Source: an uncultured Verrucomicrobiales bacterium
GTDB lineage: Bacteria > Verrucomicrobiota > Verrucomicrobiia > Verrucomicrobiales > DEV007
Length of the DNA stretch: 64,000 nt
NCBI GenBank assembly: GCA_937891465.1
Contig: CALAHF010000164.1
Span: 1-64,000 of the forward strand
Reading direction: 5' to 3'
Below, one piece after another: positions 29,751 through 38,436 of this stretch (position 1 is the first letter of the stretch; each line of letters begins with the position of its first letter). The translations under genes were made by a program, and so were the position numbers. Under the pieces are notes generated by a model. It was not told the DNA's origin. It was given only the letters and a program-made list of their open reading frames with translations, and did no database searches.

Positions 29751-30281
29751 CTATCTCTTGAAATTCGTCTTCGTTTCAGTTTCGGTTCCAGCAAAGGGCA
29801 ATTTCGTGGTCTTCACATCAAGCAAGGGACCGAGTTCGAAAATCTGTTCATAACCATAAGCGCGGAGCGAAGCCTGAGTTGAAATATTCAACGAAGCAGC
29901 CGGCGATTTAGAAGCCATTGAGATCGGACTGCCTTCGAAATTGTTGTTACAATAAATCAGGATCTTGGTTTTCTTGCCGGATATGATCACAGCCAACGAT
30001 TCCGCCGTAAATTCCGTGAAGGGCAGGTTGATCGCGCCTTTGACGTGACGCTTGTCAAAGTTCGCCTTGCTCCGCGCATCGAGCAATAGGTAGGCTCCAG
30101 ATTCCATGGCTTTCAGGAATTCAGATTCCGTGAGTCGATCAGATTCACGCTGGAGTTTCGATCGGAGAACAATGTTTTCGAAGGCAGTGTAATCGATCAG
30201 GCGATTCGGAATCGGCTCTGCGGCATTCGCCGGGATGTTAATCAGGATGACGAAGCCGGCAATAAGAGTGGTTAATTTCAT
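29751..30281 (-). CDS. Secreted rhodanese-like protein
   Basis: This 176-residue protein has an N-terminal signal peptide (MKLTTLIAGFVILINIPANAAE) and a rhodanese domain. Visible motifs are YLLLDARSKANFDKRHVKGAINLPF and the active-site strand ILIYCNNNFEGSP with Cys in the catalytic position. The periplasmic location suggests sulfur transfer, or a signalling role for this fold. It is divergent from the GbsR gene. Confidence 0.85.
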   Translation of the reverse strand: MKLTTLIAGFVILINIPANAAEPIPNRLIDYTAFENIVLRSKLQRESDRLTESEFLKAMESGAYLLLDARSKANFDKRHVKGAINLPFTEFTAESLAVIISGKKTKILIYCNNNFEGSPISMASKSPAASLNISTQASLRAYGYEQIFELGPLLDVKTTKLPFAGTETETKTNFKR

Positions 30282-30396: not shown

Positions 30397-30414
30397 TTTC
30401 TGTCTAAACAGAAA
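30397..30414. promoter_or_regulatory. Inverted repeat, putative GbsR-type operator 1
   Basis: TTTCTGT/ACAGAAA is a perfect 7-bp inverted repeat with a 4-nt spacer, 8 nt upstream of the regulator's ATG. The right half and what follows (AACAGAAATAACTGAAATG) recurs almost exactly before the next gene at 31006-31024. Autoregulation by the downstream MarR/GbsR-type protein is inferred from position. Confidence 0.5.
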
Positions 30415-30422
30415 TAACTGAA

Positions 30423-30959
30423 ATGAACGATCTCACTCCATTCCTGCAAAACTTCATTCTCCACTGGGGAGAGATGGGCACGAAGTGGGGCATCAATCGC
30501 ACGGTGGCTCAGATCCATGCATTGCTCATGACTTCGGAAAAGCCGATGAACGCCGAAGGGATTTGCGAAAAACTCGGAGTTGCTCGTTCAAATGTCAGCA
30601 ACAGCCTTAAGGAACTTCAGAATTGGGGAATCGTGAAAGTGGTTCACATCCCCAGGGATCGACGAGATCATTTCGAGTCGATGGCGGACGTTTACGAAAT
30701 GTTTCGCGTGATCGCTGCGGAACGGAAACGCCGCGAAGTGGATCCCACGCTTTCAACCCTGCGGAACTGCGCAATCGAAGCCGAAGACGCCAAAGCAGAA
30801 GAAGAAATTTACGCGAAGAAGAAGATCGAAGACCTCCTCGAATTTTTCGAACTCGCCAGCGATGTCTACGAGCGGATGAACAAGTTACCAACGAAGACGG
30901 CGATCAAAGCTTTTAAGATGGGCGACAAATTGCTAAAACCTCTCGGGCTTCTCAAATAG
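30423..30959 (+). CDS. GbsR/MarR-type transcriptional regulator
   Basis: This 178-residue regulator has a winged helix-turn-helix of the GbsR type. It begins NFILHWGEMGTKWGINRTVAQIHALLMTSEKPMNAEGI, then CEKLGVARSNVSNSLKELQNWGIVKVVHIPRDRRDHFE. A C-terminal charged helical part may dimerise. The family responds to choline or other small ligands in Bacillus, and the ligand here is unknown. It leads a plus-strand operon of membrane and lipid-type genes and is followed by its own terminator-like hairpin, so expression downstream may be partly independent. Confidence 0.88.
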   Translation: MNDLTPFLQNFILHWGEMGTKWGINRTVAQIHALLMTSEKPMNAEGICEKLGVARSNVSNSLKELQNWGIVKVVHIPRDRRDHFESMADVYEMFRVIAAERKRREVDPTLSTLRNCAIEAEDAKAEEEIYAKKKIEDLLEFFELASDVYERMNKLPTKTAIKAFKMGDKLLKPLGLLK

Positions 30960-30960
30960 G

Positions 30961-30982
30961 GGCCAGCCCTCTGGCTTTTTTT
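30961..30982 (+). terminator. Intrinsic terminator after the GbsR-type gene
   Basis: The stem GCCAG/CTGGC has a short loop and is followed by seven T (30976-30982). It lies directly after the stop codon, before the second putative operator. Confidence 0.75.
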
Positions 30983-30995
30983 ATTTGCCACTTAA

Positions 30996-31013
30996 TTTCC
31001 CTTCCAACAGAAA
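30996..31013. promoter_or_regulatory. Degenerate copy of the GbsR-type operator (operator 2)
   Basis: TTTCCCTTCCAACAGAAA has the same 18-bp length as operator 1 and shares most positions, with an intact right half ACAGAAA. It ends on the A of the start codon of the DCC/MBOAT gene. Binding here would block translation-proximal transcription. This is inferred from sequence similarity. Confidence 0.4.
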
Positions 31014-32188
31014 TGACTGAAACGACAAACAAAGGTGAACTCTTCTACGACGCAACGTGCCGGTTTTGCACGGACGGCGTTGGTCGCCTTCGTCCGTGGT
31101 TAAAGAAGCGCAACATCGTTACCGTTCCTTTTGAAAATGGAGCGAGCGAAACCGAAATGAAACTCGCCTGGCACGACGGCCGGACCTATGGCGGAGCCGA
31201 AGCCGCGATCTTTCTGGCTCGCCAATTTTGGTTCACGGCGCCGCTCGCGCTCATCGCGATGCTCCCCGGTTTTCGCCAGCTGGTGCATGCGGGCTATCGT
31301 TGGATCGCCAAAAACCGGAGCTGCTTGAGCGGCGTTTGCGAAATTGATCTCAGCGAACCTAAAAAGAGAAATCCTGCCGTTGATTGGGCGGTTCTCATAG
31401 GTTTGATCACGATTGCTACCATTGCTGGTTTCGTTTTTGAAATTCCAAAATGGATCTGGATGTGGATTCTGTCAGGCGCGATGTGGGTGGGATTGAAGTT
31501 CATGGCCTTTCGCAGCGAAGGCGGAATCAAAGAAGTAAACCCGCTCTTTTTTGCCTGGATCGGAACCGATGCGGATGCCTTTCGGTGGGATAGGCCCCAA
31601 GGCGAAACTACAACCCGACTGTGGGATAAATTCGCGTTTGTCGCCGTCGGACTGCTGCTCGCGATTGCCGTAATACCCCGATTCAACGATCCCATCATTG
31701 TCGGCTGGATCGGAGTCGCAGTGATGCTTTGCCTGTTTCATTTCGGCGGATTCTCAATTCTTGCCGCCATTTGGAGGCGCTGCGGTTTTCCCGTCGAACC
31801 CATCATGAATGAACCGTGGGTCGCAAAAACACTCGGTGAATTCTGGGGACCCCGCTGGAATCGGGCGTTCAGCGATTGGGCGCGTATCCATGTTTTTCGT
31901 CCTCTTGTTCGCAAATTTGGTGTTACCAAAGGCACCTTCGCTGGGTTTTTCGCATCTGCCGTCGCTCACGAAATCGCCATTTCCGTTCCCGCTCTCGGCG
32001 GCTTTGGACTACCGACGCTTTACTTTTTCATTCAAGCCGCAGTCCTCCTTGCCCAGAGAAAATACAAGCCGCTTCGCAACCGGTTTGTGACACTCGCGGC
32101 AGTTCTCATCCCCGCGCCGATCCTGTTTCACATCCCATTCATCGAACGCGTTTTCGCGCCCATGATGAAATTCATCACTTTTCAATAA
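31013..32188 (+). CDS. DCC thiol-disulfide oxidoreductase fused to MBOAT-type acyltransferase
   Basis: This 391-residue protein has two parts. Residues 1-110 are a DCC (DUF393) domain with the thiol motif DATCRFC (Cys16, Cys19) near the N-terminus. Residues from about 125 on are polytopic and resemble the wax-synthase/MBOAT_2 domain, with FWGPRWNRAFSDWARIHVF and a conserved His in AVAHEIAISVP. MBOAT enzymes move acyl chains onto lipids, proteins or sugars at the membrane. The fusion suggests redox-linked control or a paired step. It is the first structural gene of the operon. Confidence 0.82.
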   Translation: MTETTNKGELFYDATCRFCTDGVGRLRPWLKKRNIVTVPFENGASETEMKLAWHDGRTYGGAEAAIFLARQFWFTAPLALIAMLPGFRQLVHAGYRWIAKNRSCLSGVCEIDLSEPKKRNPAVDWAVLIGLITIATIAGFVFEIPKWIWMWILSGAMWVGLKFMAFRSEGGIKEVNPLFFAWIGTDADAFRWDRPQGETTTRLWDKFAFVAVGLLLAIAVIPRFNDPIIVGWIGVAVMLCLFHFGGFSILAAIWRRCGFPVEPIMNEPWVAKTLGEFWGPRWNRAFSDWARIHVFRPLVRKFGVTKGTFAGFFASAVAHEIAISVPALGGFGLPTLYFFIQAAVLLAQRKYKPLRNRFVTLAAVLIPAPILFHIPFIERVFAPMMKFITFQ

Positions 32189-32207
32189 CCACCAGCCAAA
32201 CGGAAAA

Positions 32208-32627
32208 ATGGACTACTTAAAAATCGCTCTCACCCTCGCTGGCATTGCCCACTTCGGCATTCTCGTTGCCAGTGCCAACGCCCCCAAAGCGCTGAATTGG
32301 AAGGAAACACTCAAGCCACTTCCGAAATTGATGCGCCAAATGTTCTGGGTCTACGGATGGTTCATCGTTCTGATGATCATCAGTTTCGGAACGATCACCC
32401 TCGTTCACACCGAGACGCTTGCCACTGCCGGCACGCCGATCGCTCGTTGGGTCAGCGGAATGATCGCCATTTTCTGGGGCGTTCGACTCATCGTTCAGTT
32501 CTTCATTTTCGATGCCACACCGTTTCTCACCAACTGGTTTTACAAACTCGGCTACCACGGTCTCACCGTCGTTTTCATCTTCCTCACCGCGGTTTACACC
32601 TGGGCCGCATTCTTTCCAAATCGCTAA
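32208..32627 (+). CDS. Four-helix membrane protein, paralogue A
   Basis: This 139-residue protein has four predicted transmembrane segments. It shares a spaced pattern with the protein at 33590-34012: a Trp, then LKPLPKL/LKSVPKL, F-V-x2-WFI, FGxIT, RW, FWxxR and Q-(W/F)-F. No known family is recognised. It lies 20 bp after the MBOAT fusion gene. It could be a membrane partner of the enzymes in the cluster. Confidence 0.75.
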   Translation: MDYLKIALTLAGIAHFGILVASANAPKALNWKETLKPLPKLMRQMFWVYGWFIVLMIISFGTITLVHTETLATAGTPIARWVSGMIAIFWGVRLIVQFFIFDATPFLTNWFYKLGYHGLTVVFIFLTAVYTWAAFFPNR

Positions 32628-32647
32628 CACCGCACACCGAAGCCCTT

Positions 32648-33553
32648 ATGAAAAAACGAATCATTCTCGCCGGAGGTAGCGGATTTCTTGGCCGCGCTCT
32701 TGCCGCTGAACTCGAGACTCGCGGCTATGATCCGGTGATTCTCACTCGGAATCCTGATCGCTACGAAGGCAATGGTCGCGCTCTTTTTTGGGATGGAAAA
32801 ACCATCGCCGACGAATGGAAAACAGAAATCGATGGCGCTCACGCAATCATCAATCTCACGGGAAAAAATGTGAACTGCCGACCGACGGCGAAAAACAAAG
32901 AGCTGATCGTGACGTCACGGACCGACTCGGTGCGGGTGCTCGGCGAAGCGATTCGCGAAGTAAAAACGCCGCCTCCGATTTGGATTCAGACCAGCTCACT
33001 TGCGATTTATGGCGACGCCAAAGAGCGCATCTGCTGCGAAGCCGCTCGGGTTGACGATCATTGGCCCGCCTACGTTTGCACTGCGTGGGAAGAAGAATTG
33101 GGTCGCGCCATTTTGCCAACAACCCAGTGGAGCGTGTTGCGAATCGGATTTGTTCTCGGCAAAAACGAAGGCGCCCTTCCCTTTCTCGCCAAGCTCGTGA
33201 AATGCGGCCTCGGCGGCAGCATTGGCAATGGCAAGCAGTGGATCAGCTGGCTTCACATTGACGATATGATCGCGATTTTCATGGAAGTGCTCGAAAACCC
33301 CGAATTCGCCGGAGTCTACAACGCAACCAATCCAAACGCCGTGACCAATGCCGAGCTAATGAAAACGCTTCGCACTGTTTTGAATCGCCCCTGGAGTCCA
33401 CCCGCGCCCGCATTCGCCGTTCATATCGGAGCCCCCATTCTAGGAAGCGATCCCGTGATTGCTCTTACCGGTCGGCGCTGCATTTCCAAACGCCTCGCGG
33501 ATTTCGATTTCAAATTTCCGCATCTCGAACCCGCCCTGCGCGACCTTTTCTAA
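32648..33553 (+). CDS. TIGR01777-type NAD(P)-dependent epimerase
   Basis: This 301-residue protein is an atypical short-chain epimerase (YfcH/SDR39U1 type). The nucleotide-binding motif is ILAGGSGFLGRALAAEL. Further motifs are IINLTGKNVNCR, TSSLAIYGD (with Tyr), SVLRIGFVLGKNEGALP, and WISWLHIDDM. The C-terminal DUF1731-like tail includes PPAPAFAVHIGAP. ATG 32648-32650 gives the proper glycine-rich N-terminus. The substrate is unknown. Confidence 0.9.
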   Translation: MKKRIILAGGSGFLGRALAAELETRGYDPVILTRNPDRYEGNGRALFWDGKTIADEWKTEIDGAHAIINLTGKNVNCRPTAKNKELIVTSRTDSVRVLGEAIREVKTPPPIWIQTSSLAIYGDAKERICCEAARVDDHWPAYVCTAWEEELGRAILPTTQWSVLRIGFVLGKNEGALPFLAKLVKCGLGGSIGNGKQWISWLHIDDMIAIFMEVLENPEFAGVYNATNPNAVTNAELMKTLRTVLNRPWSPPAPAFAVHIGAPILGSDPVIALTGRRCISKRLADFDFKFPHLEPALRDLF

Positions 33554-33589
33554 AACAAAAAACCAAACCCAAACCACCACCAAAAGACC

Positions 33590-34012
33590 ATGAGCCTCAT
33601 CCTCGATAACCTGGACAAAATCCTCATCGCCGCTGCCATCGGACAGCTCATCATCGCCTGCATCAACATGCGTCTCGACAAAATGTTGGGCTGGGACAAA
33701 GACCTCAAAAGCGTTCCCAAACTGCTTCAAGAAGTCTTCGTCGTTCACAAATGGTTCATCAGCATCATCCTCCTGATTTTTGGAGTCATCACGATCCGCT
33801 TCGCCGGAGACATCGCGAACGCGGAATACGAAATGACCCGTTGGTTCGCCGCCGGAGTTGGATTCTTTTGGGCAATCCGGACGCTCATCCAGTGGTTTTT
33901 CTACGGCTGGGACAACTGGCGCGGCAAAAAGAAGGAGACCGCGATTCACTGGATTCTCACCCTCAGCTACGGTGGCGCAGCCGTGGCCTACCTCACAGCA
34001 GCCTTTCGATAA
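33590..34012 (+). CDS. Four-helix membrane protein, paralogue B
   Basis: This 140-residue protein has four hydrophobic segments and is clearly related to the 32208-32627 protein (WDKDLKSVPKLLQEVFVVHKWFI; FGVITI; EMTRWFAAGVGFFWAIRTLIQWFF). The pair flanks the epimerase gene, which suggests duplication around it or insertion of the epimerase between duplicated genes. The function is unknown. Confidence 0.75.
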   Translation: MSLILDNLDKILIAAAIGQLIIACINMRLDKMLGWDKDLKSVPKLLQEVFVVHKWFISIILLIFGVITIRFAGDIANAEYEMTRWFAAGVGFFWAIRTLIQWFFYGWDNWRGKKKETAIHWILTLSYGGAAVAYLTAAFR

Positions 34013-34031
34013 AAAATAAACCCCACGAACA

Positions 34032-34061
34032 AACAGGGGCCAGCCGTAAGACGCCCCTGTT
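34032..34061. terminator. Inverted repeat between paralogue B and DoxX-like gene
   Basis: AACAGGGGC/GCCCCTGTT is a perfect 9-bp stem with a 12-nt loop in the 66-bp gap. It is followed by ACGAAAAAC, not a T-run, so it is at best a weak terminator or an mRNA-stabilising hairpin. Confidence 0.4.
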
Positions 34062-34078
34062 ACGAAAAACTCACCATC

Positions 34079-34489
34079 ATGAACGAAGATAAAAAACTGC
34101 TCTATCAATTGAAACTCGTCTGCCGCTGGGCGCTTGGGCTTGTCTGGATTTGGGAAGGATTGGTTCCCAAAATACTGATGCCAACGGCGATGCAAACCCG
34201 GGTAGTTGAAAACTCAGGGATCTACTGGCCCGACCCAGCCGGTTGGCTCATGATTCTCGGCGCGTGGATGATCCTTGTCGGTATCGTCATGTGCATCGGC
34301 TGGTTGGAACGGCTCACCGTTCTCGGAGCGACGGTCGCGATGACCATTCTAATTTTCCTCGTTGTCGGAAACAACTTTTACGATTCAGTCGGCGACATGC
34401 ACGGCGGCCTCGCGAAAGACTTTTGCCTGTATGCGTGCGCATGGGTTGTGTGGAAACTTGCTCCGAGTGTGCCGGGGAAACCCGTCTAA
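34079..34489 (+). CDS. DoxX-like membrane protein
   Basis: This 136-residue, four-helix protein resembles DoxX-like families (LKLVCRWALGLVWIWEGLVPKIL; GWLMILGAWMILVGIVMCIGWLERLTVLGATVAM). Such proteins are often near quinone, thiol or lipid redox functions. It closes the operon, and its stop codon abuts the stop of the convergent riboflavin synthase gene with no gap. Confidence 0.75.
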   Translation: MNEDKKLLYQLKLVCRWALGLVWIWEGLVPKILMPTAMQTRVVENSGIYWPDPAGWLMILGAWMILVGIVMCIGWLERLTVLGATVAMTILIFLVVGNNFYDSVGDMHGGLAKDFCLYACAWVVWKLAPSVPGKPV

Positions 34490-37573: not shown

Positions 37574-37616
37574 CGACTTGGTAGGGTATGTTCGACGAAT
37601 CAACCCTGTTGGATCG
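37574..37616. repeat. 43-bp palindromic element, copy 4 (overlaps a start codon)
   Basis: The right arm CAACCCTGTTGGATCG and centre TATGTTCGACGAAT are intact, while the left arm is degraded to CGACTTGGTAGGG. The ATG of the downstream open frame (37588-37590) lies inside the element, so its first nine or ten codons are repeat sequence. Confidence 0.8.
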
Positions 37617-38436
37617 CGGAAAACGCTTGTTGCTCCTACCCGGATTTCTAGGGTTGGACGCACCGGTGGTTTTCATCTCGTGGCTGATTTTGTTTTCGAA
37701 ATCGACGGGACATTCTGTTCCGTTCGTGGTTTTTACCGCAGCATTTCTCGCGATTTGGTCGATTTACCTTTTTGACCGAATCGTCGATGTAATTCTGTGC
37801 AAAGACTGGGACGTCGCGACCGGGCGGCTTCGTTTTGGCAAAAAATACCGGCTGTTTTTCGGCGTTGCGCTGGCAGTTTCGACGGGGTTCGGAGCTGCCA
37901 TTGCGATCGTTGGCCATCTACCACAGGAGGTGTTGATTCGTGGGTTGTGGGTCGCTCTTGGAGTCGCTATTTACTTTGGTGTCTTTGTGATGCCTCCCTT
38001 TTTTCGACGATCAAAATTTCCTGGAAAAGAATTTGGTGTGGGCTTGGCTTTCGCTGGAGGGATCATTGCGGCGATCGGTTTTCACAACCCTCATACTCTC
38101 GCTTTGGTTGCCTTCGGATCTGCTGCGGCGTTCAACTGCCTCCTGATTGCTGCCCGTGACCGTGATGCGGATGCGACAAATGATTCCGGTAGCGCTTCCC
38201 AGTGGTGGGGAAATTTGAGACAAGACCTCAATCGGTCCGGCTTGATCTACTCAATACTCACTCTTAACGGATTTTTTCTGCCCCCCAATCAGTGGCCTCT
38301 TTTTATCTGCCTCTGCATTTCATCCGTTCTAATGACGCTACTTAATCGTAATTCCGCCGGACTGAGTGGCGCGGAAGTTCGGGCCTACGCGGACTTTTGT
38401 CTGCTGACTCCGTTCATTGGTATTTGGTTTGCCTAA
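37588..38436 (+). CDS. UbiA-like polytopic membrane protein
   Basis: A protein of up to 282 residues with eight or nine hydrophobic segments. IYLFDRIVDVILCKDWD and a later AARDRDADATND resemble the two Asp-rich motifs of UbiA prenyltransferases, but they are degenerate, so this is tentative. The first residues (MFDESTLLDRG) are encoded by repeat copy 4. The true start may be a TTG a few codons later in the leucine-rich segment. Confidence 0.6.
   Translation: MFDESTLLDRGKRLLLLPGFLGLDAPVVFISWLILFSKSTGHSVPFVVFTAAFLAIWSIYLFDRIVDVILCKDWDVATGRLRFGKKYRLFFGVALAVSTGFGAAIAIVGHLPQEVLIRGLWVALGVAIYFGVFVMPPFFRRSKFPGKEFGVGLAFAGGIIAAIGFHNPHTLALVAFGSAAAFNCLLIAARDRDADATNDSGSASQWWGNLRQDLNRSGLIYSILTLNGFFLPPNQWPLFICLCISSVLMTLLNRNSAGLSGAEVRAYADFCLLTPFIGIWFA

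Follow-up and report, generated by a model that had tools for sequence, protein, structure and literature searches.

A probably undescribed, GbsR-led bacterial gene cluster with an acyltransferase resembling the fat-making enzyme of plants and animals

Introduction

Acyltransferases of the DGAT1 type are known mainly from eukaryotes, in which they produce storage fat and steryl esters, and most MBOAT systems described in bacteria modify envelope polymers. The locus studied here, in the genome of an uncultured Verrucomicrobiales bacterium, encodes an MBOAT domain fused to a DCC1-like thiol-disulfide oxidoreductase domain, followed by small membrane proteins and an atypical SDR and preceded by a GbsR-type regulator. 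It raises the question of whether these genes act together and, if so, on what kind of molecule. A first, sequence-only reading proposed a pathway making or modifying an acylated or redox-active membrane lipid. In the literature, searched at the level of titles and abstracts, the gene set was not found described, and the cluster, whose acyltransferase resembles the fat-making enzyme of plants and animals, is probably new. In the following, "the window" is the whole stretch of 64,000 nucleotides that was analyzed.

Gene content of the locus

The six genes called in the sequence-only reading were all present, on the forward strand and between positions 30423 and 34489 (Table 1). The hairpin that follows gbsR is not more stable than shuffled sequences (z -0.43) and is thus a weak terminator candidate, and a scan of the upstream region for a sigma-70 promoter gave nothing convincing. 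A near-identical repeat of 16 nucleotides, CAAAYAGGGGCCAGCC, lies directly after gbsR (30953-30968) and again after memB (34030-34045); the genome, of 6 Mb, has just three occurrences of its 11-nucleotide core, and the hairpin formed by the second copy of the repeat is more stable than shuffled sequences (z -3.62). Elsewhere in the window, an apparent membrane protein of 282 aa (37588-38436, forward strand) had no Pfam or NCBIfam match. A gene with a rhodanese domain (Pfam; 29751-30281, reverse strand) adjoins the operon divergently, and did not recur as a neighbor in the relatives' loci that were examined.

Table 1. Features of the cluster and its flanks, in window coordinates
Feature	Position	Strand	Evidence or remark
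gbsR-like gene, GbsR/MarR-type regulator, 178 aa	30423-30959	+	MarR_2, TrmB and HTH_5 above Pfam cut-off
DCC-MBOAT fusion, 391 aa	31013-32188	+	DCC1-like, MBOAT and MBOAT_2 all above Pfam cut-off
DCC1-like thiol-disulfide oxidoreductase domain	31034-31357	+	Pfam PF04134, E 6.7e-11; CxxC = Cys16/Cys19
MBOAT domain	31370-32188	+	Asn283 at 31859-31861, His319 at 31967-31969
MemA, four-helix membrane protein, 139 aa	32208-32627	+	AlphaFold; no Pfam family
TIGR01777 atypical SDR, 301 aa	32648-33553	+	231.2 bits versus cut-off of 207.35 (full-length profile)
MemB, MemA paralogue, 140 aa	33590-34012	+	BLASTP E 2e-20 to MemA; no Pfam family
DoxX_3 membrane protein, 136 aa	34079-34489	+	PF13781, E 3.7e-7, above cut-off
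Palindromic putative operator	30397-30414		TTTCTGT-CTAA-ACAGAAA, exact match in the window; 8 bases 5' of the gbsR start codon
Degenerate second operator-like site, TTTCCCTTCCAACAGAAA	30996-31013		2 mismatches; touches the DCC-MBOAT start codon
Terminator-like hairpin 3' of gbsR	30958-30979	+	9-pair stem and T-run

Conservation of the gene neighborhood

The sequence-only reading had named conservation of the gene neighborhood as the check on its claim of a shared pathway, and the neighborhood proved strongly conserved. Neighborhoods were reconstructed with iterated profiles. Of the phylum's 37 MBOAT loci, 36 have a Mem gene on the same strand and within 4.5 kb, 28 have the GbsR-type regulator and 22 the SDR, with DCC (18/37), DoxX (17/37) and DUF2071 (11/37) following. 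Because of these same-strand co-occurrence counts, the cluster is not a chance neighborhood: it is conserved, and above chance. DUF2071, which is absent from the window and had escaped the first reading, is a recurrent operon member in many relatives' loci. The genome itself also encodes a DUF2071 protein and a further TIGR01777 protein, both outside the cluster.

The composition varies between families, labeled here f1, f2 and so on. GbsR, MBOAT and Mem are kept together in f32 and f9, both outside the order, in f32 also with the SDR, and the set GbsR-MBOAT-Mem-SDR was found in other classes too (L108, L109, L110). The fusion of DCC and MBOAT is confined to part of f1, the two being encoded separately elsewhere; DCC is absent from f4 and f32 loci that retain MBOAT, Mem and GbsR, and several MBOAT loci have no SDR. 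Many f1 species, and f3 as well, have a unit of GbsR and SDR only (often with DUF2071), with no MBOAT encoded nearby; therefore, MBOAT is not a constant core of the unit. Several f1 species have a reduced GbsR-(DCC)-SDR-(DUF2071) form, in some cases followed by a fatty-acid-desaturase-like gene. One such gene (L047, 4369-5328, reverse strand; PF00487, slightly below cut-off) follows DUF2071 in an MBOAT-less version, and similar genes were seen in L051, L181 and L184. The f2 versions of the cluster include further small membrane proteins with no Pfam family (L070, 4591-4983 and 5022-5426), the second of which has counterparts in L065, L067, L069 and L071. At L039 (6846-8055, on a contig shared with L002) the MBOAT frame is broken over several ORFs, with GbsR and SDR not nearby, which is explained either by gene decay or by misassembly.

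Of the 289 sampled genomes of the order, 68 gave matches to the DCC-MBOAT protein, in some cases only to its DCC part or only to its MBOAT part, and the two named DCC-MBOAT relatives belong to Verrucomicrobiales. Phylum-wide, the Mem profile matched only 24 of 388 genomes, and therefore the system is patchy. The MBOAT tree groups mostly by family, as would be expected from vertical inheritance. A tblastn search of plasmids with DCC-MBOAT gave no match.

A palindrome shared across the cluster as putative operator

A palindrome of the form ATTTCTGT-N4-ACAGAAAT, not remarked on in the first reading, lies directly 5' of the gbsR start codon; in the window its core reads TTTCTGTCTAAACAGAAA. Exact or near copies occupy the same place before gbsR in most f1 and f4 loci, near-consensus copies do so in f32 and f9, which belong to other classes, and f2 loci have a TTTCAGT-type variant. 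The exact 20-mer is present in 32 of the 289 genomes of the order, always as a single site, and none of the 289 has the reversed control pattern. Eighteen of these 32 sites were read out further and most precede gbsR and/or the TIGR01777 SDR gene. Those in L185 and L186 precede SDR-Mem-DUF2071 without gbsR, the one in L187 has DUF2071 and Mem genes at a distance of about 1 kb, and the one in L173 has no link to the cluster. In genome G065, the DCC-MBOAT-MemA-MemB-DoxX block is separated from gbsR-SDR-DUF2071, which sits on another contig, and two copies of the palindrome with one mismatch each are placed just 5' of the displaced block (L036, positions 6821 and 6924; L183). Taken as a conserved sequence element, the palindrome is well supported as a putative operator shared across the cluster.

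Within the window, three operator-like matches with up to two mismatches were found versus 0.31 expected. The whole genome has two exact sites, and the regulon appears local, since the only other exact one lies inside the coding region of an aminotransferase (hisC-like) on C181. A wider GbsR regulon in this genome was rejected, given that intragenic position and the 33 sites with up to two mismatches versus 39 for the reversed-pattern control.

The MBOAT domain resembles DGAT1 and ACAT

The AlphaFold model of DCC-MBOAT has a pLDDT of 92.9, and Asn283 and His319 of the MBOAT domain are invariant across 28 relatives. The MBOAT profile matched plant DGAT1 with an E-value of 2.5e-9, exactly over the catalytic region, and in the alignment to the entry of the plant DGAT1 H447A mutant (9vjx) the changed active-site histidine falls at His319. 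DltB was not matched by this sequence profile even at E 10. All ten Foldseek matches at E ≤ 0.001 were DGAT1 (plant and human) and ACAT1/SOAT1, with DltB just beyond the threshold (E 1.2e-3). The TM-scores to DGAT1 are 0.40-0.51 at 14-18% identity and, therefore, the substrate class does not follow from them. What is supported by these sequence and model comparisons is a DGAT1/ACAT-type assignment in terms of catalytic residues and fold class, and not of orthology.

Bacterial MBOAT-SGNH enzymes, a well-described kind of system, carry a C-terminal FxYxxF motif (PMC12148441), which was absent from the last 60 residues in 28 of 28 MBOAT sequences, and no SGNH partner was seen among the recurrent neighbors as judged by reading the ORFs. 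Because of the DGAT1/ACAT catalytic residues and fold and the absence of FxYxxF, the comparisons support a neutral-lipid-type acyltransferase, which would be favored over an envelope-polymer enzyme. The sequence-only reading is supported in part: its idea of an acylated membrane lipid gains from both lines of evidence, the DGAT1/ACAT-like MBOAT and the missing MBOAT-SGNH hallmarks. A search of the genome for WS/DGAT (PF03007) gave no match, and neither did its control. In the DCC domain, both cysteines of the CxxC motif are kept in the DCC homologues that cover the region.

Partner proteins and regulator

MemA is modeled as four long helices (pLDDT 95), and a search of its fold against the PDB gave no match at E ≤ 0.001. 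Neither MemA nor MemB has a Pfam match, their NCBIfam matches are all below cut-off, and their PDB matches by sequence or fold are no better than chance. The MemA and the MemB of f1 and f4 form separate groups in trees, of which some deep nodes are weakly supported, and because of this separation the pair would be older than the split of f1 and f4. Most of the single-copy Mem proteins of other classes are nearer to MemA. On Streptomyces plasmids, the neighbors of a MemA homologue are DUF2071 and a methyltransferase, joined in one case by DoxX and a BtaA-family protein, which is a second lipid-type association of a MemA-like protein.

The SDR has solved relatives in 3oh8 and human SDR39U1 (4b4o). 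Canonical extended SDR oxidoreductases have a conserved YxxxK active site; across 47 homologues of the SDR no conserved YxxxK columns were seen, as judged by eye.

The gbsR product has its best NCBIfam match to CudC, with 47.6 bits (E 1.6e-12, residues 22-156) versus a cut-off of 218 bits, and is the only match to the CudC profile in the genome. Because this match is below the equivalog cut-off, the regulator is, as judged by profile score, a relative of the GbsR/CudC family and not CudC. Its nearest solved structure is MJ223 (E 3.5e-14). The Firmicutes regulators of the GbsR family sense choline or glycine betaine, and GbsR/OpuAR have a cage of six aromatic residues at positions 93, 94, 96, 97, 100 and 101 (PMC6207618). 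Across 51 homologues of the present regulator, no such six-aromatic choline cage or FFxFFxxFF-like cluster was found in the linker, which has only scattered aromatics (positions 83, 84, 91 and 94). Since this clade's linker offers no counterpart of the cage, sensing of choline or betaine was rejected as unsupported. The main text of the 2018 survey of the GbsR family does not mention Verrucomicrobia.

Proposed mechanism and alternatives

We tentatively favor, with not quite even confidence, the reading that the operon encodes a locally auto-repressed, acyl-CoA-dependent membrane acyltransferase complex that acts on a membrane-soluble alcohol. From the patterns above, we infer binding of GbsR to the putative operator, repression, complex formation and the nature of the acyl donor and acceptor. 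GbsR would bind the palindrome just 5' of its own start codon, repressing the operon, and probably also the weaker site before the MBOAT gene, until a ligand releases it from the DNA. MemA and MemB would be dedicated partners that probably form a subunit pair or a scaffold for the substrate. The membrane thiol state would probably be controlled by the DCC domain and the DoxX protein, the SDR may prepare or reduce the substrate and DUF2071, where present, may bind an intermediate. A bolder version, which we regard as doubtful, holds MemA and MemB to be obligate subunits of a bacterial DGAT1-type acyltransferase that forms a repressible complex with DCC, SDR and DoxX, its product being a neutral or esterified lipid new to the phylum and its regulator a GbsR subgroup with its own operator and inducer.

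Another reading, which we hold to be unlikely, is a membrane module for thiol redox or oxidative stress, in which GbsR, DCC, DoxX and SDR form a disulfide/NAD(P)H relay and MBOAT adjusts lipids or anchors DCC. The mycobacterial SodA-DoxX-SseA membrane complex offers a comparison. The retained CxxC, DoxX in nearly half of the MBOAT loci, the adjoining rhodanese gene and the MBOAT-less GbsR-DCC-SDR versions are in line with such a module; however, the rhodanese is not a recurrent neighbor, the f4 and f32 loci do without DCC yet keep MBOAT, Mem and GbsR, and a mere anchor would not need the invariant catalytic residues of MBOAT.

A remodeling of head groups of the betaine-lipid type, with MemA-like, DoxX and DUF2071 proteins taking part and GbsR sensing a quaternary amine, seems quite unlikely. 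Although the Streptomyces plasmid neighborhoods, with their methyltransferase and, once, a BtaA-family protein and DoxX, and the ligands of the Firmicutes regulators (PMC6207618) point in this direction, no BtaA-family gene was found in the genome itself (the control was positive in one genome), and the aromatic cage has no counterpart in the linker of the clade.

An MBOAT-SGNH-type system (PatA/PatB, alginate or DltB/DltD-like) that O-acylates an envelope polymer is very unlikely: although such systems are well described in bacteria (PMC12148441) and DltB appears lower in the fold list, this reading was rejected since FxYxxF is absent in all 28 MBOAT sequences, and neither an SGNH protein among the recurrent neighbors nor a profile match to DltB was seen. 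Finally, unrelated genes adjoining by chance have a vanishingly small probability, as the variable gene content, the relatives of each gene elsewhere and the extra TIGR01777 and DUF2071 genes of the genome are set against the finding that the genes recur together on one strand in several families and classes and share a palindrome, which also precedes the displaced block, and the co-occurrence counts and palindrome distribution refute this reading.

Under the favored acyltransferase reading, the conserved operon, with its DGAT1-like MBOAT, its dedicated partner pair and its own putative operator, would constitute a testable bacterial system, with the operator as a handle for finding the inducer. 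It also places the uncharacterized families TIGR01777 and DUF2071 in a shared functional setting with a membrane family that has no name.

Comparison with known systems

The DGAT1/ACAT (SOAT) branch, including the plant-type wax synthases (MBOAT_2), gives the best fold and profile matches and has a matching context of the catalytic Asn and His, whereas the MBOAT described here is bacterial, has about 270 residues and low identity, is fused to DCC in part of f1 and is tied to MemA/MemB and GbsR. With the MBOAT-SGNH systems (PatAB, AlgI/AlgJ, DltB/DltD) it shares the MBOAT membrane core, but here the FxYxxF tail is missing and no SGNH partner was seen.

In common with the GbsR family (GbsR, OpcR, OpuAR, CydE), the regulator has a MarR-type fold related to MJ223 and a gene adjoining its putative targets. 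The operator of Bacillus subtilis GbsR is an inverted repeat with a 4-bp spacer, located downstream of the transcription start (PMC7396694), and the putative operator, here recognized from sequence, is likewise an inverted repeat with a spacer of that length. The regulator differs from the family in that the six-aromatic choline cage is absent and the putative targets include neither osmoprotectant nor cytochrome bd genes.

The SDR matches the TIGR01777/YfcH/SDR39U1/ThyD atypical SDRs over the full-length profile, above cut-off, and differs from them in being a frequent partner of GbsR and the putative operator. ThyD, the only functionally studied TIGR01777-type relative met in this analysis, is a thylakoid protein with effects on division and on acclimation to high light (PMC12288457). 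The Streptomyces plasmid cluster (ArsR or DoxX/BtaA - DUF2071 - methyltransferase - MemA-like) likewise combines a MemA-like protein with DUF2071 and once with DoxX, but has another regulator, and a methyltransferase and BtaA instead of MBOAT, SDR and DCC.
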